NCBI RefSeq assembly: GCF_005886805.2 | Contig: NZ_CP045429.1 | Location: forward strand, 2,822,501 to 2,886,500 | Direction of reading: 5' to 3' | From: Pseudoalteromonas rubra | GTDB taxonomy: Bacteria; Pseudomonadota; Gammaproteobacteria; Enterobacterales; Alteromonadaceae | DNA: 64,000 bases | In this document: positions 21,061 through 59,186 of the stretch, one piece after another | Layout of the letters: the number at the start of each line of letters is the position of its first letter | How positions within the stretch are numbered: the first letter of the stretch is position 1 | Notes under the pieces: generated by a model | What the model was told of the DNA's origin: nothing | The model's input: the letters and a program-made list of their open reading frames with translations, nothing else | Database searches by the model: none | Made by a program: the position numbers and the translations under genes

Positions 21061-21168
21061 AATTATCTCCACTCGTCACAGTCGTTCAAAAAGTAAACTT
21101 TAAAATGGAGAGTAACACCCACTCAAAACCTTTATAACCAGCCTTAGTTAAGATTGAGTTTATGGGTT

Positions 21169-22016: not shown

Positions 22017-22060
22017 AATTCAGTCTCGGTGTTTGCTTTTGAGATCTGATCACACAAGGC
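21199..22060 (-). mobile_element. Degenerate IS5-family (IS903-type) insertion sequence
   Basis: Bounded by imperfect 18-bp inverted repeats: GGCCTTGTTGATCAAATC at 21199-21216, near the IS903 end GGCTTTGTTGAATAAATC, and its diverged complement GATCTGATCACACAAGGC at 22043-22060. At 862 bp it is about 200 bp shorter than a typical IS903. The flanks show no matching 9-bp duplication, so the insertion is old or rearranged. Confidence 0.8.
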
Positions 22061-22332
22061 TAAATTAGTTCAATGATTTAGGAAACAATGCCCTCAAATC
22101 CCCACATTTCGAGTTAGTTCTCGTTGTTAAATGCCCACACAATAACAATAATAAAAACCTGACTTTAACTGTAGAAAACCTCAATAGCTCACTTCTATCG
22201 CACAACAATATATGAATGCATCAGGCGTCCTTTTATCAAAGCTACACTCGAACAATTGTGATGATTTTACCCCTTCTCGACAGGCTACCAACAAATTGTG
22301 CCATCGAAGCGGATGATGACTATAATTGAATT
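22061..22332. other. Non-coding flank of the IS relic
   Basis: AT-rich sequence between the IS right end and a repeat fragment. I see no gene or RNA here; it presumably contains the promoter for the solute-binding protein gene. Confidence 0.3.
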
Positions 22333-46165: not shown

Positions 46166-46628
46166 AATACTTCCTTATCAATAACAATATTGCTACAAAA
46201 TAATTGGTTAAAAATTAGAAAAATGTGGAATTAATAAGTCGCCATTATAGTCGGTAATGACAGCAACTAAATAAGAAGTAACTAATATAGTATTAGCACT
46301 TTGGAGACACGCTTAAAATCACGACAAAGCGGCTCTAAATACAACGGAGAATATACCTAAAAAAGGGAAAAAGAAAAAGATCTGGACACGACTATTTCCA
46401 TTTCAGGATGGTTTATATGGAATGGGTAAAGTGCTCAACTCATAAAATACAATGAGTACCCATAAACGCCTTGTACCCACCAAGCCAAGCCAAGCCAAGC
46501 AAACAGTAGTCACTTTCAAGCGATAGCATACGCTTTTAGCCAGGCAAATTTAAGAATAGATGGTTTGGATTAGATCTGATAAATAAGAGGCTGTTGACCC
46601 ATCAGCTAATAAAAGCACTGTAAAAAAA
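46166..46628. other. AT-rich intergenic region with a short tandem repeat
   Basis: About 460 bp without a gene. The only structure I see is four perfect tandem copies of CAAGC at 46481-46500. The right part approaches the left edge of the cassette-like array. Confidence 0.4.
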
Positions 46629-46683
46629 TGTTAACTTGCCACTTTGTACAAGCCAGACAGGCTCGCACACAAGCGCGTTAAAA
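46629..46683 (-). other. attC-like site after the 46684 gene (short type)
   Basis: 55 bp. On the minus strand TTTTAAC follows the stop closely, an imperfect hairpin (AGCC-TGTCT-GGCT core) comes next and GTTAACA closes it. Weak but in the right place. Confidence 0.4.
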
Positions 46684-47010
46684 TTACTTACTCACCTTTA
46701 TATATGCAGCATTGTGGCAATCTGTATTGTAATAATTATGTGCCATTACTTTATCTCCAGTAGCAAATGCCGTCATTGCTGCTGAGTAGGCTCGATCATG
46801 ACTCTCTTTTGACCCAGCCGCAGTCAGAGGAAAAGAAATAGATTTATTAGCACATAAGCCAGTACCGCCCTCTAGCCAAATCGTAAATGTATTCTCGTTC
46901 CCATTTGTGTTTGAGATGCCAGTAATAGTTGCGTCTTTAACGAGGTCAGTTGCGGCAGATAAATTGCACGAAAAAACGAGCAATAGTGTAGATACTGATA
47001 AACTTTTCAT
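46684..47010 (-). CDS. Small secreted protein of unknown function (cassette-borne)
   Basis: 108 residues from the ATG at 47010; two upstream in-frame starts exist but this one gives a clean signal peptide (MKSLSVSTLLLVFSCNLSA). The mature domain has two cysteines (GLCANK and TDCHNA) and resembles the 45854-46165 product in its C-terminal half. Function unknown; possibly a member of a small secreted disulfide-bonded family. Confidence 0.6.
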   Translation of the reverse strand: MKSLSVSTLLLVFSCNLSAATDLVKDATITGISNTNGNENTFTIWLEGGTGLCANKSISFPLTAAGSKESHDRAYSAAMTAFATGDKVMAHNYYNTDCHNAAYIKVSK

Positions 47011-47072
47011 ATTTAATCTCATGATCAATTATCAATTTAGCACAATAAAACGAAAGGTATGAAATACCTTAC

Positions 47073-47103
47073 TACCAATTCGCTTAATAAAGTGAAATTG
47101 GTA
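47073..47103. repeat. Minimal copy of the 166-bp repeat element
   Basis: TACCAATTCGCTT and AAGTGAAATTGGTA are joined by four bases. These are the two ends of the element at 18880-19045 with the whole interior missing. Confidence 0.7.
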
Positions 47104-47363
47104 TAAGTTCAGCTGTCGAACAATCCCCAATGAAACCGCCGTCAGAGACTTGCTCAAATTATACACGACAACTCTAAACAAAGCATGTTCATTTCCCCTG
47201 ACAAGGTTGCCTGACGACACGGAATCACTCTTTTTCATGATGCGCTTAAAAGCACATAAGAGTGTTCAGAATACCCCCAAACAAAACACGGTTCAGGTAC
47301 TGACAGATAAGATATTCAAACCGATAAAAGCTTCTGGCGGAACTGGCTGCACCAACCACGTGT
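47104..47363. other. Non-coding stretch after the minimal repeat
   Basis: No convincing ORF or attC-like site is visible downstream of the 47364 gene, so the array may be decayed here. Confidence 0.3.
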
Positions 47364-47873
47364 CTACAAGCCCTGCTTGCTATGTTCTGACGAAAAACCA
47401 GAGTAAATAACAGCACATTGCGGGGTAATCTTCTTAGGTAACTTTGCAACAACGTCTTTCACATTGGAGGCAAAATCCGAGTTGTCTGGGGCAAACTTAA
47501 CCACATAGCATACATCCTGGCTATTTCCCGTACCGCCTGACAAGGCGTCAGAACCGAGCTCCCAAAGCAATATCACCTTCTCTTCAAGATTAAAATAGTA
47601 ATAGTCATTACCCCACCTGCTTTCTGGCACTGCCCTAATATAGCCACGCTCAGATCCAGCTATTTTTGCAGAGACTAAGTGTTCAAGTCCCTCCTCATTA
47701 CTAGGATATCGACCTGTTTTTAACTTATGCATTTCTAAGGCATCGGCAATATGCCGAAAATTGAGCTGAACAAAGTCTTTCTTACATCCCTGATTTTGCC
47801 AAAGCCACGGCCAGGCTGTGCCAACCCCCAAAAGCAAGAGTACAAGCAAAACAATCGTTCGACTTAACTTCAT
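47364..47873 (-). CDS. Solitary type II secretion pseudopilin GspG-like protein
   Basis: 169 residues. An N-terminal hydrophobic helix (about 5-25) without the canonical prepilin GFTLIE motif is followed by a helix ALEMHKLKTGRYPSNEEGLEHLV and a C-terminal block PESRWGNDYYYFN...LWELGSDALSGGTGNSQDV that is characteristic of the GspG C-terminal domain (the GSDG-like turn binds calcium in true GspG). No other secretion genes are near. It is probably a repurposed pseudopilin-like protein carried by a cassette. A shorter relative is encoded at 49741-50100. Confidence 0.7.
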   Translation of the reverse strand: MKLSRTIVLLVLLLLGVGTAWPWLWQNQGCKKDFVQLNFRHIADALEMHKLKTGRYPSNEEGLEHLVSAKIAGSERGYIRAVPESRWGNDYYYFNLEEKVILLWELGSDALSGGTGNSQDVCYVVKFAPDNSDFASNVKDVVAKLPKKITPQCAVIYSGFSSEHSKQGL

Positions 47874-47887
47874 AAGGTTCCTTACGT

Positions 47888-47940
47888 ACTAAACGCTCTG
47901 TCACGGAAGCGGCGTAATATTCCTTGCTATTTTCTTACGC
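47888..47940 (-). other. attC-like site after the kinase-like ATPase gene (short type)
   Basis: 53 bp. The end box on the minus strand is GTTTAGT; the centre ACGCCGCTTC resembles short integron attC sites. The R'' box overlaps the stop but is degenerate (GCGTAAG). Confidence 0.45.
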
Positions 47941-48429
47941 GCTCACCTTGCAGCCATGCTCGAGCTCACTGTCGGCCGGCGCTTCAAACTTAGGCTCCAT
48001 GAAGTCAAACATCATGTCCGTTACTTCAAACGAATACACCTTCGAGTCCTTTTCTATATTCCGTTTAGCGACTCGCTTTCTGCGAGTCTCCTTTTGTGCG
48101 TCAAGATAATGGATCTCGGCTCTAATACCTAACTCACTCGCTTTGCCGACAAAAAGATCACGCTGAGCTTTAGTCGTAAAACCCAGGTCAAGCACAACGT
48201 TGCCGCCTAATGATAGAATTTGCTCGCAAACTTCCCATATTTGCTCGTGACAACGACCCACACGCTCCATCATCCAGGAAAAATCAAGCGACTGCATATC
48301 TTTCGCAAATAATGTCTGCATCCAGGGGTCAATTGAGAACTTGACGGCCCCAACCTCCTCACATAACGACATAGAATAGGTCGTTTTACCTGCCCCGATA
48401 GGACCACAAACCAAAATTAACCGTGCCAT
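47935..48429 (-). CDS. P-loop kinase-like ATPase (zeta toxin/AAA_33 type)
   Basis: 164 residues from the ATG at 48429 (AGGA eight bases upstream). Walker A GPIGAGKTT at residues about 8-16, then a DPW motif (FSIDPWMQTLF) and the lid region (ETRRKRVAKRN) are those of AAA_33 small-molecule or nucleotide kinases; zeta toxins share the fold. No antitoxin-like gene adjoins it. The substrate is unknown. It is a typical free-standing cassette gene. Confidence 0.78.
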   Translation of the reverse strand: MARLILVCGPIGAGKTTYSMSLCEEVGAVKFSIDPWMQTLFAKDMQSLDFSWMMERVGRCHEQIWEVCEQILSLGGNVVLDLGFTTKAQRDLFVGKASELGIRAEIHYLDAQKETRRKRVAKRNIEKDSKVYSFEVTDMMFDFMEPKFEAPADSELEHGCKVSA

Positions 48430-48754
48430 TTTTAAATTCCTATTGTTATTTCCTGTGAACGGCACATCATACTGACCATATTATGGTGCAGACGTATCTA
48501 GTCTAATTTTGCCAGTACAACGTCTTGAGCTCTACATATTAAACCACTCATGGCCTTACAAACCAAAACCCTGACTAAGGGCACCAAGTTCAATAGTGAT
48601 ATAGCCCACCTCTAAGTTCAATAATACACTTGGTAACTCATCACTACTTTGTATTTATAGCCAAAAGATAAACAGTAAAGATATTAAATAGCTGGCTAAA
48701 CACAGCTCAAACAACAGGTAACTCAGCTATTTTTAGAATATAACAAATGTCACT
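48430..48754. other. Gap in the array, possible decayed attC
   Basis: About 325 bp without a gene. A 9-bp inverted repeat AAATAGCTG/CAGCTATTT at about 48686-48732 and GTTATAT just after the upstream stop (minus strand) may be what remains of an attC. Otherwise nothing is supported. Confidence 0.3.
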
Positions 48755-49097
48755 TCACGCTTTATTTTTAAACAGCAAAGGCGTAATTAGTAAACTGGCC
48801 AGCATGCAAAGTGCTATGATAAACCCAATATTTTGTAGCAAGCCTGTGTCAGAAAAAAGAAAAGTAAAAGCAATAAGCAACGCTGCTAATTGACTATAGC
48901 CTATCCATAATCTCGAACTACGGTTACCCGTGCCACGATACATCCAGATAAATATTACGGGTAAAACCAAAAAGAGTAGTACCATCAGAGGGTAGATGAC
49001 CCCAGCACCGCCATATGTCACAGTTCCCTCCCTTCCGCGTAAAACGGTGATAAGCAGCAAAAAATAGTAGTCATAAAATAAACACTAATTTACTCAT
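48755..49097 (-). pseudogene. Small membrane protein gene with probable frameshift near its start
   Basis: The open frame 48755-49060 encodes three hydrophobic helices (GVIYPLMVLLFLVLPVIFIW, LAALLIAFTFLF, IIALCMLASLLITPLLF) but has only a TTG start without a ribosome site. An ATG at 49097 with GAGGGG seven bases before it reads MSKLVFI and then hits a stop. Removing one T from the T4 run at 49075-49078 would join it to DYYFLLLITVLRG in the main frame. This is either a true disrupted gene or a base-calling error. Function unknown. Confidence 0.55.
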
Positions 49098-49124
49098 TGC
49101 CCCCTCGTTTAATTAATAAATAGT

Positions 49125-49205
49125 CTACAACACGATAAGGTGCCTGATGCCCCAAGGTTAACCTTATGTGGCAAAACGGAGCTGAGCCTGGTTGCTCTGT
49201 TATAT
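49125..49205 (-). other. attC-like site after the ABM gene
   Basis: 81 bp. Minus strand: ATATAAC overlapping the stop, then AGAGCAACCAGGCTC, the CAGCTCCGTTTTGCC centre familiar from Vibrio-type attC sites, and CACCTTATCGTGTTGTAG at the end. One of the better matches. Confidence 0.6.
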
Positions 49206-49517
49206 ACCGTAATCCCGCTCTACTTTTGCAATACGCACCTTAAATGACTTGTACCAAAGCTTACGGCCTGATTTTTGCGCTTCCATGTGCTCTGCATTCG
49301 CTTTCCAGAGTTTGATGGACTCCAAATCTGTCCAATAGGACACTGTAATACCTAGCTCCTCTCTAGCTGATTCAATGCCTAAATATCCGGGTTGCTGTTC
49401 AGCTAACTCGACCATTCTACTTGCAATTTCACTATAACCATTATCCTCTTCTGTTCGACTCGAGGTAAAAATAACAGCATAGTAGGGTGGCTCCGGAGTA
49501 TTAGCTAACAGTGACAT
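49200..49517 (-). CDS. ABM-family (YqjZ-like) monooxygenase-type protein
   Basis: 105 residues. YYAVIFTSSRTEEDNGYSEIA, then MVELAEQQPGYLGIESARE and ITVSYWTDLESIKLWKANAEHMEAQ, is the pattern of the YqjZ-like antibiotic-biosynthesis-monooxygenase fold. These small dimeric proteins are often of unknown function and are common integron cassette products. The stop codon lies in the R'' box of the following attC-like site. Confidence 0.85.
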   Translation of the reverse strand: MSLLANTPEPPYYAVIFTSSRTEEDNGYSEIASRMVELAEQQPGYLGIESAREELGITVSYWTDLESIKLWKANAEHMEAQKSGRKLWYKSFKVRIAKVERDYGI

Positions 49518-49740
49518 CTGAATTCCTTAGGTATATGTTATTTCGCTTTTCTATACACATATTGCGACAAGCAAGCTAGTTAGTTATTGTGAGCCCTGCG
49601 TACGAAAACGCCTGGAATTTTCTATTTAAAATCGGCATGGTGAACAAACACGTCTTTTTTGAACCAATTTCCCTTATGCAAAACCAACCTGGTAACAGCA
49701 ATACACAAGCCAGCTTTTATGTCTGAGAACATATGCATTT

Positions 49741-50100
49741 CTATTTGCCGTCTTGATGAAGCCATTGTACGTTTGTTTCTTTGATACCTAAACCAGCTTT
49801 AAACTTGACAGGGAAGGCTAATGTTGGTTTTCCTGCCCAACCTCGCTCCAGGTATAAATTATACCCTTCGCCATTTCTTTCGTACCGTACGGCAGATAAC
49901 CATATACCATCCCAGTCTCCCAAAAACTCCAACTCACTCAGGCTATCAGGGTAGTGACCATTTCTTAGTTTATGTAATTCTATGATTGATACAGCTGATA
50001 CAAAGTTCTGCTTACCAAACTTCTCATCGGCACCGGGGACTTCAAAGTCACAGCCCAATAAAATTACCGCGAGCACTATGCTGATTATTGTTTTAAACAT
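49741..50100 (-). CDS. Lipoprotein with GspG-like domain
   Basis: 119 residues. The lipobox ILLGC gives an acylated cysteine at about residue 17. The mature part AVSIIELHKLRNGHYPDSLSEL is very similar in pattern to the helix of the 47364-47873 product and to GspG pseudopilins, but it is lipid-anchored and lacks the calcium loop. Function unknown. Confidence 0.65.
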   Translation of the reverse strand: MFKTIISIVLAVILLGCDFEVPGADEKFGKQNFVSAVSIIELHKLRNGHYPDSLSELEFLGDWDGIWLSAVRYERNGEGYNLYLERGWAGKPTLAFPVKFKAGLGIKETNVQWLHQDGK

Positions 50101-50147
50101 TTACTCTCTGTCCTTTTATAAAAATCCACACCATTTCCATGCTAGAT

Positions 50148-50229
50148 ATGATAATCAATAGCTGCTGCAGTTTATGAGGGGTTACAAGCTTATGCCACGC
50201 GTTGCGCCTTCCCCTAAATCAGATTGCTA
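50148..50229 (-). other. attC-like site after the LysE-family gene (decayed)
   Basis: On the minus strand TAGCAATCTGATTTAGGGG is roughly complementary to CCCCTCATAAACTGC plus AGCAGCTA, flanking a GCAACGCGTGGC centre similar to Vibrio repeats. The end box is not recognisable. Confidence 0.4.
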
Positions 50230-50232
50230 GTT

Positions 50233-50850
50233 TTATTGCTGACGACTTAGCAACAAATTTGCTCCAGATATAGCTAAAAAGGTTGCGCAGCCTCTATTGA
50301 AGCGCTTTGCTATTTTCGGCTTCGTGAACCACTGCCTTAGATATACTCCGAATAGGGCATAAATTGATATTGCCACTAATTCTAAAATGAGGAAAGAGGC
50401 CCCCAAAACGAAGAACTGTTCATTTACATTGGCTGTAACATCAACGAACTGAGGTAGAAAGGCAGTAAAAATTAAGATCGCCTTTGGATTTCCTGCAGCT
50501 AATAAAAACTCCTGCTTCGCTAAACCAAGTCGGTTGCGAGTACTTTCTGGTTCGGAGACTGGACTTGCTTCCGAGCGCCAGAGATTAAAGGCAATCCACA
50601 ACAAGTATGCAGCACCGGCAACTTTAATGGTCAAAAACAGCGCCTCAGATGCAAAGAGCACAACCGCTAAACCTGAAGCAGCCAAAGCAATCATGACTGT
50701 GAACGCCACAATTCGACCCAGACCAGCAATAAAAGCGGATTTAAAACCGTAACAACGCGCATTGTTCATAGACAATAGGTTGTTTGGACCAGGAGTCATA
50801 TTGAGCGCAAAACACGCCAACGCAAAGAATAGTAAATTCCAAAACTCCAT
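50233..50850 (-). CDS. LysE/RhtB-family amino-acid exporter
   Basis: 205 residues with six membrane helices. The N-terminal motif ACFALNMTPGPNNLLSMNNARCYG is the RhtB/LysE signature, and LAAGNPKAILIFTAFLPQFVD is the second conserved block. It exports amino acids or derivatives. GGGGAG precedes the ATG. It is bounded by a GTTATAT box on the upstream side and a decayed attC-like site downstream, consistent with a cassette. Confidence 0.9.
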   Translation of the reverse strand: MEFWNLLFFALACFALNMTPGPNNLLSMNNARCYGFKSAFIAGLGRIVAFTVMIALAASGLAVVLFASEALFLTIKVAGAAYLLWIAFNLWRSEASPVSEPESTRNRLGLAKQEFLLAAGNPKAILIFTAFLPQFVDVTANVNEQFFVLGASFLILELVAISIYALFGVYLRQWFTKPKIAKRFNRGCATFLAISGANLLLSRQQ

Positions 50851-50865
50851 AAATTCTCCCCATAA

Positions 50866-51119
50866 ATATAACGCTCTTTAGAGCGGTGAGCCATAATTGG
50901 TCAGGTTTTTAAGTAAAGCAGAGCCAATTACTATAACTCTAACTTTAAGGCTTTATAATTATCTTTTTATGTATTCATAGTAGCGCTTTCTCGCTCTTTC
51001 ATTCCCAGCACCAATACGCCAACCCATATAGTTATTTACATCTTTAATTGATGCTAGAGCACGCCTTTTATCTCAATCTCTAAAATCTTACCTCAGTGGC
51101 CACGAGGAACCTGTTAAGC
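50866..51119 (-). other. attC-like interval after the GNAT gene
   Basis: The boxes are clear: GCTTAAC (a perfect RYYYAAC) overlaps the GNAT stop, and GAGC-GTTATAT lies 16 bp upstream of the next gene. At 254 bp the interval is too long for one ordinary attC, so it may hold two sites or an empty cassette. Confidence 0.5.
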
Positions 51120-51569
51120 GCCTTGCTCACCTTCACTTTTGACCATTTTATTTACCGTTACTTTTACAGAATTGTAAGTGGTTTCAAATGTTTCTGTGAT
51201 CACGAAACCTGACTTTTTGTACATTTCCTTTGCGAAAGAATTCGAAGCCGCAACATACAAACTCGCACTTCGCGAGGTAAGAGACAGTAAATGCTCTAAT
51301 AAGTCTTTGCCAATTCCGTGCCCTCGATGGTTAGGGTGGACAAATAACGCCCTTATTTCTGACTCAAAGATTGCGCAAAAAGCGACTATAGACTCAAGTT
51401 CGTAAACGAATATTTGGGATTCAAATAACAGTTTGCTTCGTTCCTTGTCTTCTGACAATGGAAGTAAAGTAAACAGTGTATCTTCCTGCGACAATTCGTC
51501 TAATTTAGAGAGGTTATATATTTTTTCTATTGACAGAAAGTCGACCTCTGAATACATCCTTATGGTCAA
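51114..51569 (-). CDS. GNAT family N-acetyltransferase
   Basis: 151 residues with a TTG start supported by AAGGAG seven to eight bases upstream. GNAT signature: AFCAIFESEIRALFVHPNHRGHGIGKDLLEHL (CoA loop RGHGIG) and LYVAASNSFAKEMYKKSGF. Substrate unknown. The TAA stop is part of a perfect attC R'' box. Confidence 0.88.
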   Translation of the reverse strand: MTIRMYSEVDFLSIEKIYNLSKLDELSQEDTLFTLLPLSEDKERSKLLFESQIFVYELESIVAFCAIFESEIRALFVHPNHRGHGIGKDLLEHLLSLTSRSASLYVAASNSFAKEMYKKSGFVITETFETTYNSVKVTVNKMVKSEGEQGA

Positions 51570-51755
51570 ATTTTACTCCTTACGGCTCACGTCTGAATAC
51601 ATGAATGCTAGGATAAATTTAGCGACAAAGAAGCTCAATCCCGCTGATTTACATCCTTGATTAATGCGTTTGATATTTGTTCTACTACACCAATACAGTT
51701 TTATGGCTTGTTCCACATGCTCTTAGTTATGCACGAGGTACTTTTTAACAGGCAC

Positions 51756-52286
51756 TTATTTTTTGTTTTCTTCATTTGGTGGTACATATGGATATTTCAT
51801 CCCTGGGGCCCATTTTATTTTCTTATCTACGTATTCAGAAAAACCAGTGCCATCCTCTATGCCCAAAACTGAATGGCCAAAACAACTAACTAGTACAACC
51901 ATTGATTCAGTACCACCATAAGGGTAGTCATGAGGATGAAAGTTCAGATGGTGGCACCCATTCTCTTTCGTGATGGAAATAAGATCGTAATCTCCATTCC
52001 AGAAAGCTTCATACATTGACTCTAAATCCCATGGTGGCAATGGCATTTCAGGAGATAGGCGAACCTCAACGGCGGTCTCTGCCCAAAAGTTTTGCCATTC
52101 TTTCAGCTCTTCGTTCGATGGGTCCCAGAAATGGCGCTTTTCACTTTCCGAAAGAAACTCGCTCAGTTTCATTTCGTCTGGCCCTTTCGAAGAATCTTTC
52201 TCTTTTTTCAGTAACTCAAAGAAACTTGTAAGCCGTGCCAGTGACTCATCACCCTGTGCATTAAATTTTACGTGGCAATATTTCAT
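51756..52286 (-). CDS. Soluble protein of unknown function
   Basis: 176 residues from the ATG at 52286 (AAGGGG seven bases upstream). It is acidic and rich in tryptophan and histidine (HFWDPSNEELKEWQNFW, ENGCHHLNFHPHDYPYGG), without signal peptide or membrane segment. The C-terminal GTESMVVLVSCFGHSVLGIEDGTGF resembles immunity-type or SMI1-like folds only vaguely. I do not recognise the family. Confidence 0.6.
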   Translation of the reverse strand: MKYCHVKFNAQGDESLARLTSFFELLKKEKDSSKGPDEMKLSEFLSESEKRHFWDPSNEELKEWQNFWAETAVEVRLSPEMPLPPWDLESMYEAFWNGDYDLISITKENGCHHLNFHPHDYPYGGTESMVVLVSCFGHSVLGIEDGTGFSEYVDKKIKWAPGMKYPYVPPNEENKK

Positions 52287-52301
52287 TGGTTCCCCTTGAG
52301 C

Positions 52302-52400
52302 ATATGACACTTCGCTAAAGCGTCGCAAAATAACAGACTAAAATTAGCGAAATAAGGAGCGCAAGCCTGCTGTTTTTCGTCCTTGGCTGAAACGTTATTT
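52302..52400 (-). other. attC-like site after the 52399 gene
   Basis: 99 bp. Minus strand: AAATAAC overlaps the stop, a CAGCAGGCTTGCGCTCC centre follows and GTCATAT closes the site. The end box has GTC where GTT is expected. Confidence 0.5.
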
Positions 52401-52773
52401 AGGCCTGTGTAATGATTCTTCGTTGCCAGAGCAATAACACCCCAGCAAACACAATTGAAATAAATGATAAACAGAACAGCGGTTGCGAAGTTCCGGTAAC
52501 ACCAAAGGCCGTTAAAATTATCAAGCTTAAAGCTAAAAACAAGCAAGTTAATCTTGTCACATTTGGAAAGTCATATATCGATTTCACACCAAAAAAAATA
52601 CACGTCAACCCCAGTAAAGAAAAAGTGAACAGACCAAAATAAAATAAACTTTCAAACATCATGAATGCACTGACAGACAAACTAATCAAAGATAACACGC
52701 CCCAGCCGACTGCTGAAGGAAGTATTAAAACCATCAAAAGTAGTTGTCTTATAAAGTTATTTTTCCGATTCAA
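52399..52773 (-). CDS. Small multi-pass membrane protein of unknown function
   Basis: 124 residues from a TTG at 52773, chosen because the frame upstream runs through an attC-type end (GGGCGTTAGGA) that cannot belong to this cassette's gene, and because AGGA lies seven bases before the TTG. Four hydrophobic helices are predicted. No family recognised. Confidence 0.55.
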   Translation of the reverse strand: MNRKNNFIRQLLLMVLILPSAVGWGVLSLISLSVSAFMMFESLFYFGLFTFSLLGLTCIFFGVKSIYDFPNVTRLTCLFLALSLIILTAFGVTGTSQPLFCLSFISIVFAGVLLLWQRRIITQA

Positions 52774-52779
52774 AGGTAT

Positions 52780-52880
52780 TCCTAACGCCCGTATCTGAGG
52801 AATCCCCAGATATTCATATTTAAAATCAATGCGATGGAGACACAAGGTATTGTTTGATTTAACTTATTTCGCTAAAGCTA
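52780..52880 (-). other. 3' half of an attC site (separated from its other half)
   Basis: Minus strand CAGATAC-GGGC-GTTAGGA with an imperfect hairpin ATCTGAGGAATCCCCAGAT. GTTAGGA is almost the exact complement of the ACCTAAC box at 53492-53498, whose partner end is missing, so the two are probably one site split by the intervening sequence. Confidence 0.5.
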
Positions 52881-53011
52881 ACGAGATAACAACACCCTGT
52901 GTATTCTCTCCATCCTATACGATATGCTTAGAAAAAACTGCCCCAAATTCATGCCCGGCATCTTGGTATTAATGCTGGCAACCGAAATGCCGGGTTTCGA
53001 CAGGTTGATAA
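52881..53011. other. Sequence between the split attC and the transposase relic
   Basis: About 130 bp, no gene or inverted-repeat end recognised. It may be part of the decayed IS. Confidence 0.25.
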
Positions 53012-53393
53012 AAAGGTTGGTCATGGCTCAGACGGATGCGTAGCAAAATCACTGTTCGCGAGCGTATGTAAATCGAAGAAAACTTTCGAGATCTGAAAAG
53101 CCCTCAATACGGTATGTGCCTCAGACATAGTAAAAGCCGATGTACCCTACCGGCTCGATACACTGTTATTGCTCTATTTACTTGCGACAATTATCCTCTG
53201 GTGGTTTGGCCTGTATGCTCGCACTCAAATAGGCAACGAAAGTTCCTGGCAAATACAATCAGAGATTGTGCCGTTTTGTCGACTGTCAGACTTGGCAAAA
53301 AGGTTATTTGACGAAATGGCGTGGAAACAGTCACGCAAGACTATAAGTGAAGAGGTTTGCTTCACATCGCAGCTTGAGAGCCCTCTTTTATGA
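53012..53393 (+). pseudogene. C-terminal relic of an IS4-family transposase
   Basis: The reading KITVRERM-stop-IEENFRDLKSPQYG matches the IS4 Y-(2)-R-(3)-E-(6)-K region with the usual glutamine codon CAA turned into TAA at 53069-53071. After a frameshift near 53130-53148 the frame continues YRLDTLLLLYLLATIILWWFGLYAR and ends at 53393. The N-terminal two thirds, including the first catalytic aspartates, are absent. It is on the opposite strand to the surrounding cassettes. Confidence 0.8.
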
Positions 53394-53439
53394 GGGGTCC
53401 ACAAGCGCCGCAGTATCTAGCTAAAAATAGCTGATAAGT

Positions 53440-53498
53440 AATTTATGGGCACAAACAAAGGCAACTACTTTTTGTCCGCGTTTACAATTTTGTTAGGT
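53440..53498 (-). other. 5' half of an attC site after the 53502 gene
   Basis: Minus strand, beginning 4 bp after the stop: ACCTAAC (perfect RYYYAAC), then AAAATTGTAAACGCGGAC and AAAAAGTAGTTGCC, the normal 5' portion of a Vibrio-like attC. Its 3' half is not adjacent; the IS4 relic intervenes. Confidence 0.55.
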
Positions 53499-53501
53499 AA
53501 A

Positions 53502-53966
53502 CTATTGACGCCTTCGGCCTCGGCTCCAATTAACAGTCGCGCAAATAGCAACAATCAACGGAGTAATGAACAGTGAAAATATAATATATAAATTGTAGTC
53601 ACTTTTTTGCTCAGCAAAATCATATTGTTCGATGCCATCAACTTTCAGAGAAAAGACGTGAAGCTTTAACAAGATATTTCTCTGTACTGCCTCAAAAGAG
53701 CGTGCATTTTGATAAAATGCCACAAGCTGTGAACACTCTCCTTCTTTACTAAATTTCATCTCAAGCCCTGATTTATCTGTAAAAAATGTTAGCTTTTTCT
53801 GCATAAACGAACGTGAGCCCTCTTTACATTCTACAGAACGTATTTCTCCCTGAAGTTTTTCAAATTCAGTAAGCTCCCCAATACTGTCAGCATACTCAAA
53901 TACAGAGAATCCATATACTAAACTGCTCAAGCCTATTAACCAAAGAAACTTTATAAATGCTGGCAT
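53502..53966 (-). CDS. Membrane protein of unknown function (DUF3592-like layout)
   Basis: 154 residues from the ATG at 53966 (AGGAG upstream). A membrane helix at each end (about 5-25 and 125-147) brackets a beta-rich domain (GEIRSVECKEGSRSF...LTFFTDKSGLEMKF). That layout is like DUF3592 proteins, but I cannot confirm the family. The last codons read through GGCGTCAATAG, a sequence also found at the next attC-like site, so the C-terminus may have been formed by recombination. Confidence 0.55.
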   Translation of the reverse strand: MPAFIKFLWLIGLSSLVYGFSVFEYADSIGELTEFEKLQGEIRSVECKEGSRSFMQKKLTFFTDKSGLEMKFSKEGECSQLVAFYQNARSFEAVQRNILLKLHVFSLKVDGIEQYDFAEQKSDYNLYIIFSLFITPLIVAICATVNWSRGRRRQ

Positions 53967-53983
53967 CAATTCTCCTGCTCACC

Positions 53984-54055
53984 AAAAACCATACTCTGAG
54001 GAATCTTCAGAAGGCGCCAAATACTGACATTTAGCTATTGACGCCATAACGTTTT
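53984..54055 (-). other. attC-like spacer after the DJ-1 family gene
   Basis: Minus strand AAAAAAC-GTTATGGCGTCAATAG near the stop, then a TTCTGAAGATTCCTCAGAG hairpin and GGTTTTTGG. It shares GGCGTCAATAG with the 53502 gene end and a TCTGAGGAATC block with 52795-52811. Probably a variant attC. Confidence 0.35.
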
Positions 54056-54811
54056 TTAAGTACCACTATTAGTAATAATCATTTCCTTTGCAACCAGAGC
54101 AGCAGATGGTAAAAACATAGTTGTAACCACACGTTGGTCAATGACAACATCATGTTTATTTTTTAATGTTTCCTTATTTTGCGCAAATGCCCCGTTCTTA
54201 TTAAGCTGGCTTTCAATCAAAAAGGGTAATAGCGTCCCTTGTTTCGCCCACTTTTTCGATTTTTCTGTGGAGTTAGGGAAACCTGCGACTTTTTTACCCT
54301 TAACGAGAAATTGCCCGGAAGCCAATTTCACGTTAGCAATACCTGCAGCCCCATGACCACCCGTGCCTACAACACCGCCCGACTGATAGATTCTGGCAAT
54401 GATTGACTGTATTTCTTTATTGCTCGCCACATCAAAAACAGGGCCGTACCCTCCACCTATATATACGCCCCAGTAGTCATCAGGATTAACGTCTTCTGGT
54501 TTAAGTGAACTGTTAGCTTTACCTAAAAAGTTCTCGTATTTTATTGTATAACTGCTGATTCCGAGAGGATCCATCATAAAAGGAACTTTCCCACCTTGAG
54601 GTGATACAAAGTCCACGTCAAAGCCATGACTAACAAACACATGATATGGCGGTGCCACTTCCCATAGGTTGTTTCTTGCATCATGTTTTTCTGGATCTCC
54701 CATGTTTTCCATATTTGATACAATAATCAATACTTTCTTAGCTGGCTCAGCGTACAAAACACTTGATAGCAACAGACAAAGTGCACTAAAAAATAAACTA
54801 AAAAACTTCAT
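54056..54811 (-). CDS. Secreted DJ-1/PfpI-family protein lacking the nucleophilic cysteine
   Basis: 251 residues with a signal peptide (1-21). The fold is that of Hsp31/PfpI glutamine-amidotransferase-like proteins: VLIIVSNMENMGDPEKHDARNNLWEVAPPYHVF, YWGVYIGGGYGPVFDV and the elbow GVVGTGGHGAAGI. In active members the elbow reads CHG; here the cysteine is a glycine (about residue 152, GGT where TGT is expected). Glyoxalase or deglycase activity is therefore unlikely, and export to the periplasm is unusual. Role unknown. Confidence 0.82.
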   Translation of the reverse strand: MKFFSLFFSALCLLLSSVLYAEPAKKVLIIVSNMENMGDPEKHDARNNLWEVAPPYHVFVSHGFDVDFVSPQGGKVPFMMDPLGISSYTIKYENFLGKANSSLKPEDVNPDDYWGVYIGGGYGPVFDVASNKEIQSIIARIYQSGGVVGTGGHGAAGIANVKLASGQFLVKGKKVAGFPNSTEKSKKWAKQGTLLPFLIESQLNKNGAFAQNKETLKNKHDVVIDQRVVTTMFLPSAALVAKEMIITNSGT

Positions 54812-55256
54812 AATTTCCCTTAATTAAACCTGTGCCACAAAGACACATAACCTTTTGATTTTTATATCTTATTACATTTCACCATGAATACCCAGTAATA
54901 AATTCCCGATAACAGAAACTTTTGCAAAACACTTACCTCCCCCCTCAAGTGTTCTTTGCAATGGTTCTCGCACGCTTAATGCTATCCTGCTATCTCTTGT
55001 CTGGGATCATGAGTTCTGACATATTAGATGACTGCCCACAGTCAGATTCGGCAAAGAGCTCGGACGACGAAATGATTATTTTATGCCAGGGAAACGATTA
55101 CACGGTGCTATACACGAATACGTGCGTTTGATACACCAGCTTGAGCGAACTCAATTATTTAGGAAACTCCACGCGTCGCTGTAGCTGGCTTAAAATATAA
55201 GCGCGAACAAAAACAATGGTTTCCTGCCCGCGTTGATAATCTGATTAGATTACTGT
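54812..55256. other. Long non-coding gap in the array
   Basis: 445 bp without a clear attC site. A short plus-strand frame (about 55010-55131, acidic) is not convincing. This may be a decayed cassette. Confidence 0.3.
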
Positions 55257-55667
55257 TCATAAACACGTATTACTGCGAATTCTGCGTACTTTTCGCCCTG
55301 CACTTGAAATAAACACAAATGATTTATCATCGATAGTGACTATTTTGTCTGTAACTATTATGCCTGTAGGCAAAGGGTTTTGACCTTGGCTTTCTGTCAC
55401 CGTGATCGTGAGTTGTCCATCTTTAATCAACCAACTGCCGAGAGTAATTGAGTCTATCGAATTGCATTTACCGGAAGTGTATTGAATATGCTCTATAGTG
55501 CCATCACTTCTATAAATGCTGATATGACCTTCTTGCCCATAATAGTTATCTGTTTTTGAAATTGACCATGACCCAACCAGTTTTTTCGAAAGTTCAAAAT
55601 CTGAAATTGGTTGAGCAGTAACATCAACAGACACAGATAACAGAAACGCTACTATTGTATATTTCAA
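55257..55667 (-). CDS. Small secreted lipocalin-like protein
   Basis: 136 residues, TTG start with GGAG seven bases upstream, signal peptide ending near VTA-QPI. The sequence LSKKLVGSWSISKTDNYYGQEGHISIYRSDGTIEHIQY and later ITLGSWLIKDGQLTITVTES follow the pattern of small lipocalin-like or DUF-type beta-barrel proteins. Two cysteines (GKCNS and NTCL). Function unknown. Confidence 0.65.
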   Translation of the reverse strand: MKYTIVAFLLSVSVDVTAQPISDFELSKKLVGSWSISKTDNYYGQEGHISIYRSDGTIEHIQYTSGKCNSIDSITLGSWLIKDGQLTITVTESQGQNPLPTGIIVTDKIVTIDDKSFVFISSAGRKVRRIRSNTCL

Positions 55668-55689
55668 AATAAGCTCCCTTTTTAAAGAA

Positions 55690-55748
55690 ACCTGACGCCT
55701 TGCTCGGCCGCCGCCAGGGTGTAGTCGATTAGATGCAGCACCTTACTA
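55690..55748 (-). other. attC-like site after the 55746 GNAT gene (short type)
   Basis: 59 bp, GC-rich. Minus strand AAGGTGCTGCATC, a GGCGGCGGCC centre, then GCAAGGCGTCAGGT. Again GTC replaces GTT in the end box. Confidence 0.45.
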
Positions 55749-56234
55749 TGCTGCTAAAACCTTCTCCATTAAGACTGCATTTTTTCCATAACCTGGATAC
55801 AGATTTGCTCCTGAGATTTCTTCGAAGCCCAGTAATGACCAAAAGCGACCAGCGCCTTGAACGGCAACAAGAGTGATTCGCTTAACCCCTTTACTTACAC
55901 ACACTTTTATTAGCAATTCCATCATTGAACGGCCTATTCCTTGGCCCTTGAAGTGTGGACCAACTGCCATATCATGGAGAAACAAGGAGTCGCTATTTAC
56001 AAGGTCTGGCAAAGGCTCAAACAGCTTGGGAGGCTCTTTCCCGCTCCATGGATGTGCCAACAAATAGCCTAACACATCATCTCGATCTGACACGCAGACA
56101 AAGCAAGTGTCCGGCGAAGCAGATTGCTTAGATTTGAGTACCTCTAGTTCTTCTAAGCCAACTTCATGATAGGCACTATCTTGAATTTCTAAGATCCCGA
56201 TCCAATTCTTTTCTTCGATTTTTTGAATTTTCAT
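55746..56234 (-). CDS. GNAT family N-acetyltransferase
   Basis: 162 residues with a full GNAT signature: YLLAHPWSGKEPP, FLHDMAVGPHFKGQGIGRSMMELL (CoA loop KGQGIG) and ITLVAVQGAGRFWSLLGFEEI. Substrate unknown. The ATG follows the GTCATAC box of the preceding attC-like site by only 8 bp, so expression must depend on transcription from outside the cassette or a promoter within the neighbouring one. Confidence 0.88.
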   Translation of the reverse strand: MKIQKIEEKNWIGILEIQDSAYHEVGLEELEVLKSKQSASPDTCFVCVSDRDDVLGYLLAHPWSGKEPPKLFEPLPDLVNSDSLFLHDMAVGPHFKGQGIGRSMMELLIKVCVSKGVKRITLVAVQGAGRFWSLLGFEEISGANLYPGYGKNAVLMEKVLAA

Positions 56235-56241
56235 TTGTTTT

Positions 56242-56338
56242 GTATGACAGCGTCAAAGGATGATACTACTTGGCTATACTTGTGCAACGAAACGGAGCCA
56301 AGCGTTAGCAGCCCCACTACTTAATGCGCTGGTTATAT
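56242..56338 (-). other. attC site after the 56333 gene
   Basis: 97 bp. Minus strand: ATATAAC containing the TAA stop, CAGCGCATTAAG complementary to CTTTGACGCTG at the other end, a GCTAACGCTTGGCTCCG centre with CTTGGCT/AGCCAAG stem, and GTCATAC. Strong overall structure with a mutated end box. Confidence 0.65.
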
Positions 56339-56893
56339 TTCTCTTTGTACTGAGCAATTCGCGTGCTTTCCAAAGTGGTCAACAGCAAAGCTAAACAGTA
56401 CCTTTACCATGAAAAAAATACTCACCATCAAAAACCAAAGTGGCAGTGACAAGTAAATCAATAAAAAGATGCCATAGCACATAAAATTAGCGGCAACAAA
56501 AGACTGAATTGACTTCCCCTTTAGCGCATTGACTATAAATGCTGACACGATAGTGTAGCCCCAAATCATGATTGCACTACCCATGGGTTCAGAAAGCAAC
56601 CATGCAATAGCTAAAATATGAACGTGAATGGCGATAAAAATAAGGCGACTTTTGGGCCGCCGAGAATAAAATTCATTCGTGCCATAGCTAAAATTAGCAA
56701 TGCAGCCCGCCAACACATCAAAGATTAATAGAAAAGCTATGATTGATTTCCAATTATCTAAGCTTGTATCTGCAACTGAATAAACAATCCAACTTCCGAA
56801 CAAGGCAAATACAATCGTACAACAAACCTCTAAAAGTGATTGTTTTTCACCAAATACTTCGAAAAGAAATTCTGGGGTTTTAAAGTACCTCAT
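56333..56893 (-). CDS. Multi-pass membrane protein of unknown function
   Basis: 186 residues with five or six membrane helices and a conserved-looking loop FSYGTNEFYSRRPKSRLIFIAIHVHIL. No family recognised. It starts 45 bp after the GTTATAT box of the preceding attC and its stop lies inside the next attC, the standard cassette geometry. Confidence 0.62.
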   Translation of the reverse strand: MRYFKTPEFLFEVFGEKQSLLEVCCTIVFALFGSWIVYSVADTSLDNWKSIIAFLLIFDVLAGCIANFSYGTNEFYSRRPKSRLIFIAIHVHILAIAWLLSEPMGSAIMIWGYTIVSAFIVNALKGKSIQSFVAANFMCYGIFLLIYLSLPLWFLMVSIFFMVKVLFSFAVDHFGKHANCSVQREI

Positions 56894-56937
56894 TGTCTGT
56901 GTACCACTTCCTTATATGTACCGAATTTTGATGTGAA

Positions 56938-57075
56938 ATATAACGCCATAATAGAGCAGCCAATACGTAGGTTGCTTTGTGTTAATTTGGTTCAAAGCGA
57001 CAACACAAAGCAACTGGAGTGTTGAAAATCCAATCGACCCGTTTTTACCGGCGTTTTTGAATTTCCTTGTTAACA
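56938..57075 (-). other. attC site after the 57078 gene (long Vibrio-like type)
   Basis: 138 bp. Minus strand: TGTTAAC-AAGG near the stop, AAAACGCCGGTAAAAACGG, a perfect 13-bp stem GTTGCTTTGTGTT/AACACAAAGCAAC, and TTGGCTGC...GGC-GTTATAT at the end. This is the clearest attC of the window. Confidence 0.75.
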
Positions 57076-57077
57076 AT

Positions 57078-57437
57078 TTAGTTTGGCAACTTAATACGTT
57101 TAAATATGAATACTCTTGTCTCCTTTTGAAGATTAAGTTCATATTTATTTCTTAATAGAATCTTTAACTTCTGACTTTGAGCGCCATGTTGTAAGAAAGA
57201 TGGCTGATTAACCTTACGATTAAAGAAGTAGAAATAGTCGTTATCGAACTCAATATTTCCACTTTCGATGATGGGCTCTTTTGGATCGAAACCGTAGCAA
57301 TCATTATAAATCTTATAATTATCACCCTTAAGTTTTAGCGCATCAGGACATTCGAGTTCTTCACCAAACTGAAGCCATGTATCAGCACTTGCCGGAAAGT
57401 TCAGTAGGAATGTAAAGATAGCTATTATTCTGCTCAT
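57078..57437 (-). CDS. Small secreted protein of unknown function
   Basis: 119 residues from the ATG at 57437, with signal peptide (ending near PASA-DTW). Two cysteines (LECPDA and NDCYGF) and an aromatic beta-rich segment (NIEFDNDYFYFFNRKV). No family recognised. It is the first gene of the array as transcribed and is followed by the clearest attC site. Confidence 0.6.
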   Translation of the reverse strand: MSRIIAIFTFLLNFPASADTWLQFGEELECPDALKLKGDNYKIYNDCYGFDPKEPIIESGNIEFDNDYFYFFNRKVNQPSFLQHGAQSQKLKILLRNKYELNLQKETRVFIFKRIKLPN

Positions 57438-57443
57438 AACCAA

Positions 57444-57888
57444 AGACCGCTACCAGTATATTTGTGAGAATGCCGGTTAAAGCCTGCTCTCAGGTTTTTC
57501 CCGCCTCCACAACTAAATTAACATAATAGGAACAACCTACCACCCTGAACCTAAACCTGCAAGCCTGGTGTAGCCTGAAAAAAGCGAGCCTTGATATTGG
57601 CGAGACCTGAGCGCTTGGATAAAACGTACATGTAAGACTGATATAATGGCTCATTAATTTTTGCCTGTGAATCTGCATATATGTTTTTTGATATGTACTG
57701 AGGCATCCAGGAAGACAAGGAACGTGTTTTTGGCTATTCATTCACCTTAGCGCGAGCTACAGGAACCTGACAAACTCAACTTAGATCGTCCTCCCATTTC
57801 CAAAAATCGCAATTTCACTTCCACAAATAAAGCCGAGTATACATACTCAAAAAACAGCCAAGCCCAACAAATACAAACACTTAAAAAA
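57444..57888. promoter_or_regulatory. Region upstream of the efflux operon with an activator-site candidate
   Basis: About 445 bp without a convincing gene. GAGTAT-AC-ATACTC at 57835-57848 is an inverted repeat about 41 bp upstream of the -24 element, where a sigma-54 enhancer-binding protein could bind. Confidence 0.45.
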
Positions 57889-57904
57889 TGGCATGTGACT
57901 TGTA
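57889..57904 (+). promoter_or_regulatory. Sigma-54 promoter of the efflux operon
   Basis: TGGCATGTGACTTGTA fits the -24/-12 consensus TGGCAC-N5-TTGCA with the invariant GG and the correct spacing. Transcription would begin about 57915, 24 bp before the ATG. Confidence 0.72.
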
Positions 57905-57938
57905 ATGTCTACTATCAAGTACCCTTAGAGGATTGAGT

Positions 57939-59186
57939 ATGGACATACAAGTCGAACAAAAAAAGAACACCCAAGTGAACTGGCTGTGGCTAGGCGGGAT
58001 TACCTTGTTCGTTGCCGTGGCGGGCTGGCTGCTCGCCCAGCCCAGCGCGCAGGCATCCTTGCCGACAGAGGATGCCTGGATTGGTGAGGTCAGACAGGGA
58101 GATTTAGTCATTTCAGTGGCCGGGTTTGGTCAGCTTAAATCGCGCACGCCGCGTTTGATCAGTGCTGCCAGTGAAGCCACGATAGAGGAAATCGTACTGC
58201 GCCCGGGTATTGAGGTTACGCCCGACAGTGTGATCATGCGACTTAAGGATGCCAACCTGACTCAGGCACTAAAAGATGCAAAACGCACGCTGCAACAGGC
58301 AAAAGATCAATATTTGCAATCAAACATTAATCAGCAGCGTGAAATGCTGTCGCATCAGGCAGATCTGGAGATCTTAAAATCTGACTTAGAACGTGCTGAG
58401 TTAGAGGTGTCTGCTCAGGCAGGTCTGGTTGAGGATGGTGCAGTATCCAAACTGGATTATCAGCGTACAGTTCTGGAACATCGCCAGTTAACCCGCAGGA
58501 TTGACATTGAACAACGTCGTATCAGTCAACTTGAAACCTTGCATACAGCTAACTTACAGCTGGCCAACTCAGATATCGAAGCTGCCGAAGAGGCTTATCA
58601 GCTGATCCAGCACAGAGTTGACCGCCTCACTGTACGGGCGGGGATCACAGGTGTGGTGCAGCAGGTATATGTCGAACTGGGGCAAAGTGTGCCCATGGGC
58701 GCGCAACTGGCGTTGGTTGGCAGCACCCGCGATTTATATGCCCGATTGCAAATTCCACAGGCATATGCGGAGCAAGTAGCACTGACGCAATCGGTTCAGG
58801 TGAACACCCGCTCAGATCTAATCACAGGCACTGTCTCGCGTATAAACCCTGTGGTGCAAAATGGCAATATTGAGCTTGAAGTAGCACTGCCCAAAGCTTT
58901 ACCCGACAGCGCCCGGCCCGAACTCAATATTGAAGGCACTATACATATCAACACACTCAACGACGCGCTGTTTATCGACAAGCCTGTCGGTGCCAAAGCC
59001 TTTAGCCACGCCAGGTTATACCGTATCGACGCGAATACCCATCAAGCACACGCCATTGAGGTACACTATGGCGCCCAAACCGCACAGCATATTCAGCTGC
59101 TATCCGGCGCACAACCAGAGCAGCGCTTTATTCTGTCGGATATGGCATCCTATCAGGATGAGCCGGTCGTGTACCTGAGTAAATAA
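57939..59186 (+). CDS. HlyD/MacA-type periplasmic adaptor of an ABC efflux system
   Basis: 415 residues from the ATG at 57939 (GAGG seven bases upstream). One N-terminal inner-membrane helix (about 17-36), a lipoyl half (GDLVISVAGFGQLKSRTPR), a long coiled-coil hairpin (about 110-220), the second lipoyl half (VDRLTVRAGITGVVQQVYVELGQSV) and a beta-barrel. It links the inner-membrane ABC permease to an outer-membrane factor, which is not encoded here. First gene of a five-gene operon. Confidence 0.9.
   Translation: MDIQVEQKKNTQVNWLWLGGITLFVAVAGWLLAQPSAQASLPTEDAWIGEVRQGDLVISVAGFGQLKSRTPRLISAASEATIEEIVLRPGIEVTPDSVIMRLKDANLTQALKDAKRTLQQAKDQYLQSNINQQREMLSHQADLEILKSDLERAELEVSAQAGLVEDGAVSKLDYQRTVLEHRQLTRRIDIEQRRISQLETLHTANLQLANSDIEAAEEAYQLIQHRVDRLTVRAGITGVVQQVYVELGQSVPMGAQLALVGSTRDLYARLQIPQAYAEQVALTQSVQVNTRSDLITGTVSRINPVVQNGNIELEVALPKALPDSARPELNIEGTIHINTLNDALFIDKPVGAKAFSHARLYRIDANTHQAHAIEVHYGAQTAQHIQLLSGAQPEQRFILSDMASYQDEPVVYLSK

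Follow-up and report, generated by a model that had tools for sequence, protein, structure and literature searches.

How does a chromosomal integron turn into an ordinary cluster of genes? Clusters of attC sites lacking integron integrases (CALINs) are common, and how they arise is seldom visible. We analyzed one candidate in Pseudoalteromonas rubra (genome of 5.94 Mb, two contigs), within a 64,000-nt stretch, here called the window (G000:C1:2822501-2886500), in which a first-pass annotation had proposed an integrase-less cassette array at 46629 to 57442. This interval is very likely a decayed CALIN, the relic of a chromosomal integron, and its unexpected content, not noted in the first-pass annotation, is an attI-like leader and an insertion sequence (IS) resembling IS10. 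The attI-like remnant, the broken integrases, the junctions with a sister species, and the IS fossils can be read together here, and they allow the successive stages to be traced by which an integron decays into an ordinary gene cluster. Unprefixed positions below refer to the window; contig C1 is not to be confused with cassette gene C1, and G and L numbers are our labels for genomes and loci.

Same-strand attC sites in the interval

Between 46684 and 57443, 16 minus-strand open reading frames (ORFs) of 101 to 251 aa were chosen from the ORF list, leaving aside smaller overlapping minus-strand ORFs, and were numbered C1 to C16 in order of decreasing coordinate (Table 1). Their Pfam families are diverse (GNAT twice, DJ-1/PfpI, LysE translocator, ABM monooxygenase, AAA_33, T2SSG, DUF5992, and a weak lipocalin), and 7 of the 16 proteins have none.

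Sites were sought with two covariance models. R1 was built from 14 clear attC sites of the main array (contig C1:2587-2626 kb), and R2 was rebuilt from 38 attC sites in 8 stretches of the same genome, none of them from the window, which was searched with R2 with filters off. The 27-pair hairpin of the R2 alignment covaries, with 121 double-change cells versus a shuffled mean of 59.7 and none of 500 shuffles reaching 121, in an alignment that had been fitted to the structure; pairing is 79.6%, compared to at most 48.5% in slid versions. RNAalifold returned no pairs on the first MAFFT alignment, in which the 3' arm was misaligned, and the structure was set from pair frequencies instead.

Genome-wide, R1 gave at least 46 matches at E ≤1, a lower bound from scoring 150 of 1,511 first-look candidates: 30 fall in the main array, one in the window, and the others in small groups on both contigs. 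Within the interval, R2 found five matches of at least 15 bits, all on the plus strand, which is the bottom strand of minus-strand cassettes, as expected. The remaining 53 kb of the window holds one such match (20.6 bits at 21121), and five 20-kb control stretches of the same chromosome hold two (33.2 and 19.4 bits); three of these stretches (L027, L029, and L031) were already known to be without an R1 match. The three control matches predict 0.21 in the interval, where five are seen (Poisson P = 3e-6, with the 15-bit line set after the matches were seen). A possible orphan attC of 33.2 bits lies ~41 kb beyond the right end of the array (L041 698-799; contig C1:2920698-2920799).

The five sites begin at 50866, 51600, 52302, 53399, and 56242, with a largest gap of 2.7 kb by our own model rather than that of IntegronFinder; at least two attC sites less than ~4 kb apart are the usual threshold for a CALIN. 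C2, C6, C7, and C8 have attC sites of their own, and the stops at 52399, 56333, and 53502 (3 of the 16 genes, in the window itself) fall within 5 nt of site ends. The proposal of a CALIN at this place is thereby upheld, with attC matches well above chance, as scored by a home-made model and not by IntegronFinder. Its four best sites fared unevenly: 56242-56338 and 53440-53498 were borne out, 56938-57075 is matched in part, 49125-49205 has no match at E 10, and the strongest site of all, 52302-52404 (51.5 bits), had been left off the list.

A search for boxes and folds was abandoned in favor of the covariance model. Its strict version gave 3 matches only; its loose version gave 67 on one strand of 65.6 kb, many of them evidently spurious, and a lengthy series on the opposite strand, with 5 + 5 on the two strands of the interval, none of which is a reported site. 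A match at 52780-52877 (15.6 bits), at first counted as attC, was dropped as mostly IS end.

Homologues of seven of the genes stand beside attC in other species

A search of 108 genomes of the genus for array DNA listed 30 loci, of which 29 were scanned with R2, together with seven further stretches; the analysis of gene-attC adjacency took in all 20 matches of L106, L108, and L110 and 24 of the 26 matches of the listed loci. All homologue figures are among the matches listed. Seven of the 16 genes (C1, C2, C4, C5, C6, C9, and C10) have homologues elsewhere with an attC -17 to +7 nt from the stop codon or 14 to 23 nt from the start. An attC is adjacent in 1 of 1 homologue rows for C1, 2 of 3 for C4, 1 of 1 for C6, 2 of 2 for C9, 2 of 6 for C2 (one place counted twice), and 5 of 6 for C10 (three places). 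The C10 homologue in G041 has an attC of 92.7 bits 17 nt before its start and another of 20.1 bits 1 nt after its stop. Neither of the two homologue rows of C3 has an attC, and C7, C8, and C11 to C16 have no homologue rows.

Direct cassette support, by an own attC or an attC-flanked homologue in another species, therefore exists for 9 of the 16 genes: the "about sixteen cassettes" of the first-pass annotation hold as a count of genes, and their cassette nature is supported for nine. C1 to C10 are well supported as cassettes as a group, and C11 to C16 are candidate cassettes by position and strand only.

An attI-like leader and broken integrases

Cassette C1 begins next to the leader at 57450-57606, which matches contig C1 at 1180.7 kb (68.9% over 167 nt, E 9e-9) and at 2590.4 kb (E 2e-5). 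Both copies resemble the DNA that immediately precedes the main intI (E 9e-9 and 3e-15, respectively; attI E values were computed for 53 local stretches). An attI-like leader beside C1 suggests that the locus was probably once a whole integron and that its intI, expected to the right, was lost. Six attI-like copies occur in the stretches examined, at 1180.7, 2491.0, 2590.4, 2622.6, and 2625.4 kb of contig C1 and in the window at 57450-57606, and not all of them have an integrase alongside.

A functional integron has an intact intI in cis, and this locus has none. TIGR02249 has 13 matches over the genome, among which no intact IntI was found; none lies inside the window, as had been claimed for these 64 kb, and the nearest remnant is 73 kb from the array. 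The main intI (contig C1:2625675-2626779; L001 1486-2608), ~242 kb from the array, is split into open pieces of 225 and 101 aa by a MITE-like (miniature inverted-repeat transposable element) insert of ~150 bp with inverted ends ATACCAATTT/AAATTGGTAT. A second remnant (contig C1:1274554-1273625) consists of pieces in different frames with stops, and a third (contig C1:2795713-2795907) is an N-terminal piece only. Three other open tyrosine-recombinase-like frames (312, 339, and 327 aa) reach at most 77 bits with TIGR02249, against a cut-off of 265. Across the genus, TIGR02249 matches 90 of 108 genomes at 1e-40 and 83 of 108 over the curated cut-off, and the sister species G007 carries an open 325-aa IntI copy. 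By eye, an end similar to that of the insert in the main intI lies in the window near 47070-47106, a place which matches contig C1:3475146 and C1:563384.

Decay of the sites and turnover between relatives

Folded as single-stranded DNA, one site of the main array gives -22.9 kcal/mol (z -3.87), and the five model-supported window sites give z scores of 0.63, -0.13, 0.47, -1.95, and 0.63. The attC sites of a functional integron fold with R and L boxes paired; here, four of the five fold like shuffled DNA, with z ~0, and the array is decayed. The candidate sites at 56938-57075 (z -1.5) and 49125-49205 (z -2.7) have little or no model support. Boxes have been lost as well: GTC stands for the expected GTT in the two best sites, and, by eye, R' is gone at 51584 and R'' at 50866.

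Separate segments of the locus have matches of 92-98% identity in the sister species G007. This genome holds C1 to C4, C7, C9 to C11, and both flanks, and it is without seven genes, C6, C8, and C12 to C16, having no match for 46416-49749, 51672-52366, and 52795-54008. R2 matches its locus at three places (29.9, 26.0, and 23.1 bits), of which the first (L104:13421-13522) is taken as evidence for the C2 attC and the second (L104:8663-8760) for the site at 50866-50964. Upstream of C7, the two genomes are identical from the R' box GCGTTAGG on (46/47) and unrelated before it (16/60). This junction is exactly the crossover point of IntI; a complete short attC (by eye, with no model match) stands there in G007, versus an IS end in the window. 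C5 of G007 is interrupted by ~1 kb of another element (L104 10244-11280), IS-like by reading, which also occurs in the window at 21199-22093.

The right-flank gene at 57933-59186, by reading an efflux-adaptor-like protein, has close relatives in P. rubra (84-86% identity) and in other Pseudoalteromonas. Among nine loci of other Pseudoalteromonas, four extend 10 kb and two 1.6-2.3 kb past this flank, and three end at contig ends there. In the six informative loci, matching with the window ends at 57791-57939, L059 alone having a further IS-like piece that matches. These species do not share the gene order, in agreement with the array proposed, and the sister species itself is without 7 of the 16 genes. 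At the same place in P. rubra S2599 stand different small minus-strand genes, with attC matches of 43.6 and 24.5 bits, and the other eight loci at the right flank show no attC match at E 1. Two loci, L062 and L063, have an additional match in a distant part of the window, at ~18.9-19.0 kb.

Weighing the alternatives

Several observations weigh against a decayed cassette array. R2 is a home-made model with rough E values, not IntegronFinder or HattCI, and three of the five sites have window E values of 0.1-0.5. For seven of the 16 genes (C3 and C11 to C16), the model supports no site and no attC-flanked homologue was found; C11 to C16 may be non-cassette accessory genes, and of 11 places with C5 homologues, only one adjoins an attC. 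The leader is tied to the main attI transitively only, with no direct match at E 0.01. Decay is also incomplete, as 49125-49205 folds (2 of 200 shuffles are as good) and 50866-50964 nearly does (6 of 200). Finally, the difference with G007 at C8 breaks in mid-hairpin of an attC and not at R', and it is therefore not an IntI product, ruling out that all cassette differences with G007 are such products; the breakpoint is of the kind that recombination or slippage between neighboring attC sites would give.

How far, then, does the array extend? C11 to C16 (46684-50100) could, as a real if minority possibility, be a separate accessory block beside a shorter array of C1 to C10, given that every model-supported site lies at or above 50866 and that C12 to C16 are absent as one block in G007. 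These genes, however, resemble the array in strand, size, and spacing, a hairpin with z -2.7 stands beside C12, and the loss of terminal cassettes would look alike. Could the array still be alive, its degenerate sites being recombined in trans by an integrase elsewhere, with cassettes gained and lost today? The differing cassette content of the sister species, one of whose junctions falls precisely on the R' box, and the open IntI of G007 would fit such a satellite array, but we consider it improbable: no intact intI was found in this genome, the two best sites carry GTC, four of five sites fold no better than shuffled DNA, and the R'-box junction may predate the decay. An ordinary genomic island or hot spot, its unrelated small genes brought in by homologous or illegitimate recombination and its attC-like stems due to chance or terminators, is highly improbable, because the breaks at 57791-57939 in the six informative loci, the seven genes without any attC evidence, and the C8 breakpoint away from the attC crossover, which favor it, are set against five same-strand attC matches where 0.21 are expected, an attI-like leader, and the homologues of seven genes beside attC elsewhere, which largely refute it.

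For the decayed integron array that we prefer, the following course of events can be proposed. IntI would have collected the run of minus-strand cassettes at attI and attC next to the leader. The local intI would then have been lost, the main intI split by its insert, and the two further copies broken. Since then, attC sites would have lost GTT or AAC boxes, and most would have ceased to fold; at least two of them would have taken IS10-like elements into their R'/L' part. Gains or losses of cassettes would also have set the sister species apart, in one case at the attC crossover box and in another through recombination within attC repeats. The array, probably immobile, most likely now behaves as an ordinary, slowly eroding accessory gene cluster, and expression, if any, would come from promoters inside the cassettes.

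As in other CALINs, small genes lie on one strand with attC between them and no intI within 64 kb; unlike them, this one has strongly decayed sites, a retained attI-like leader, and IS10-like elements inside attC. The attC family and the strand orientation are shared with the main chromosomal integron (contig C1:2587-2626 kb, 30 of 46 R1 matches), which differs in its many high-scoring attC sites and in an intI that is interrupted but present.

An IS10-group element inside attC sites

The IS at 52795-53405 is a deleted copy of a 1,315-nt element, retaining IS positions 1-195, 581-663, and 946-1204 at 82.6, 83.1, and 86.2%, respectively. An intact relative in G061 (L107) encodes a 331-aa transposase (PF01609, E 3.7e-19) that is 48.9% identical to a transposase annotated IS10A. 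This kinship and a 9-bp target duplication (in 5 of 17 copies) place the element in the IS10 group of the IS4 family. The C6 attC continues on the right of the window copy, whose right 9-nt flank is CGCCGCAGT, and an R' box stands on its left; a second remnant at 55032-55173 interrupts the C4 attC in the same manner.

How regular is this placement? The left end of the element was found in 10 of 108 genus genomes at E 0.001, G067 being a weak outlier, with at most 7 candidates scored per genome and a query that included 16 nt of attC flank; the search was therefore repeated in nine of these genomes with the transposase alone. Among 39 distinct left flanks, some perhaps orthologous, AACGYY lies 4-6 nt before the end in 27, with one mismatch in 5 and with two or more in 7, the last including L143 and L120 (not attC) and L163 (opposite orientation). 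Right ends came from 20 of the 60 loci L111-L170, picked for holding one, and were compared with 43 of 47 attC matches, four low-scoring ones being left out. Of 22 distinct right ends, 15 abut an attC match, 14 of these at the same offset; the other seven are L163 (reversed), L143 and L150 (in non-attC DNA), L112, L127, L134, and L152. The 9-nt flanks are identical (9/9) in 5 of 17 two-ended copies, which include both non-attC copies; in the other 12, one of which is the window copy, they differ. For L134, an outer pairing of the flanks gives 8/9. The differing 9-mers suggest products of recombination between IS copies. In G007, five copies lie ~2.3 kb apart (C1:4524735 to 4531863 and 1056-1280); if the contig is circular, they would form a tandem amplification of IS plus cassette, which would fit IS-IS recombination.

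One fixed offset makes survival in a safe harbor insufficient as the sole explanation. Travel of the IS as a cassette was set aside as well, as attC flanks vary from copy to copy and five copies lie between perfect 9-bp duplications. The motif AACGCY-N4-T occurs 163 times outside versus 14 times inside attC matches in 446.5 kb, so a short motif alone fails to explain the targeting; the longer TAACGCY-N4-WAA occurs 7 times outside versus 9 inside in the same DNA, counts by which targeting of sequence and of structure are indistinguishable. Among 394 genomes of the order, 4 of them from this genus, the exact attC-IS junction pattern was found in this genome only. On balance, a Pseudoalteromonas clade probably carries an IS10-group (DDE) element whose main target is a fixed point of attC, in the R'/L' spacer, and of which the window holds two fossils.

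The element differs from IS10 (IS4 family), with which it shares 49% of transposase identity and a 9-bp target duplication, in that most of its copies lie in attC at one offset; the symmetric target rule of IS10 is looser than this placement. Choosing one end of attC is otherwise the habit of the IS1111-attC group of the IS110/IS1111 family, which is reportedly the subject of work by Tetu and Holmes in 2008 and Post and Hall in 2009. That group has a DEDD transposase, whereas the element here has a DDE transposase (PF01609, not PF01548/PF02371), IS10-like ends, and 9-bp duplications. IS1111-family elements are named as attC-targeting in passages of PMC12444791, PMC9330008, and PMC11187229, those of PMC3826837 add nothing further on attC targeting, and group II introns occur in integrons according to PMC7923331. 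Among titles and beginnings of abstracts, with subscription papers and ISfinder outside the search, no IS4- or IS10-group element targeting attC was found. The IS10-group element that cuts two sites here, and most of whose copies elsewhere occupy one fixed position of attC, is a new observation of this analysis.

What would such insertions do to an array? Each would sever the R' box from the hairpin, locking the cassette in front, and directly repeated copies would let arrays be deleted or amplified without an integrase. If the element does select attC, it would represent an independent, second way of targeting attC, next to that of the RNA-guided IS1111-attC elements. It would then also provide a testable model of how a classical DDE transposase comes to aim at integron sites and part of the explanation for frozen cassette arrays.

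Features of the array

TABLE 1 Putative cassette genes, attC sites, attI-like leader, and IS remnants of the window, from high to low coordinate
Feature	Position	Strand	Details
attI-like leader remnant	57450..57606	-	before first cassette; CTGTTAG box reads CTGGTAG
C1, 121 aa, no Pfam match	57078..57443	-	homologue L092 (72% identity) ends 3 nt from 73-bit attC
Possible attC of C1	56938..57075	-	R' GTTATAT present; partial match 56938-56987, 11.4 bits, E 8.5; fold z -1.5
C2, 186 aa, no Pfam match	56333..56893	-	homologue in G033 (88% identity) ends at 61-bit attC
attC of C2	56242..56338	-	29.8 bits, E 5.8e-4; crossover GTT now GTC
C3, 162 aa, GNAT acetyltransferase	55746..56234	-	PF00583 E 2.8e-13; no attC found
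C4, 136 aa, weak Lipocalin_4 below cut-off	55257..55667	-	homologue L081 ends 7 nt from 47-bit attC
attC of C4 without R' side, truncated at IS end	55174..55256	-	by eye; no model match
Second IS10-like remnant, right end only	55032..55173	+	71.7% over 127 nt (55032-55158), E 2.8e-13; tblastn E 1e-10; putative final 15 nt (to 55173)
C5, 251 aa, DJ-1/PfpI family	54056..54811	-	PF01965 E 2.4e-8; homologue L079 ends 2 nt from 42-bit attC
C6, 155 aa, no Pfam match, absent in G007	53502..53969	-	homologue L085 ends 4 nt from 83-bit attC
attC of C6 (R'', L'', variable terminal structure [VTS], L'), split by IS	53406..53498	-	match 53399-53498, 19.7 bits, E 0.11
IS10-group element, defective, 611/1315 nt	52795..53405	+	internal deletions; transposase remnant; right end by alignment
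Split-off R' box (TCCTAAC) and 9-nt flank CGCCCGTAT left of IS	52780..52794	+	
C7, 148 aa, no Pfam match	52399..52845	-	G007 homology begins at R' box GCGTTAGG (52781-52788)
attC of C7, best site	52302..52404	-	51.5 bits, E 7.2e-9; R1 genome-wide E 3.1e-7; GTT now GTC
C8, 190 aa ORF, no Pfam match, absent in G007	51756..52328	-	
attC of C8, VTS kept, R' lost	51584..51676	-	R1 18.0 bits; R2 18.3 bits, E 0.23, as 51600-51666
C9, 151 aa, GNAT acetyltransferase	51114..51569	-	PF13508 E 2.2e-12; homologues L084, L091 beside attC
Weak attC between C9 and C10	50866..50964	-	16.8 bits, E 0.52; R' GTTATAT kept, R'' lost; z -1.95
C10, 205 aa, LysE-type translocator	50233..50850	-	PF01810 E 2.3e-28
C11, 119 aa, no Pfam match	49741..50100	-	no attC found
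C12, 105 aa, ABM monooxygenase-like, absent in G007	49200..49517	-	PF03992 E 3e-6
Candidate attC of C12	49125..49205	-	no R2 match at E 10; fold z -2.7
C13, 101 aa, no Pfam match, absent in G007	48755..49060	-	no attC found
C14, 176 aa, AAA_33 P-loop protein, absent in G007	47935..48465	-	PF13671 E 4.4e-25; no attC found
C15, 169 aa, T2SSG-like, absent in G007	47364..47873	-	PF08334 E 1.5e-15; no attC found
C16, 114 aa, DUF5992, absent in G007	46684..47028	-	PF19454 E 1.5e-34; no attC found

At gathering thresholds, Rfam lists tRNA alone in the window. Small secreted proteins like C16 were noticed by eye at the same locus in P. rubra strains (L057 6030-6368 and L061 8780-9118), and another lies near the second intI remnant (L047 18358-18828).

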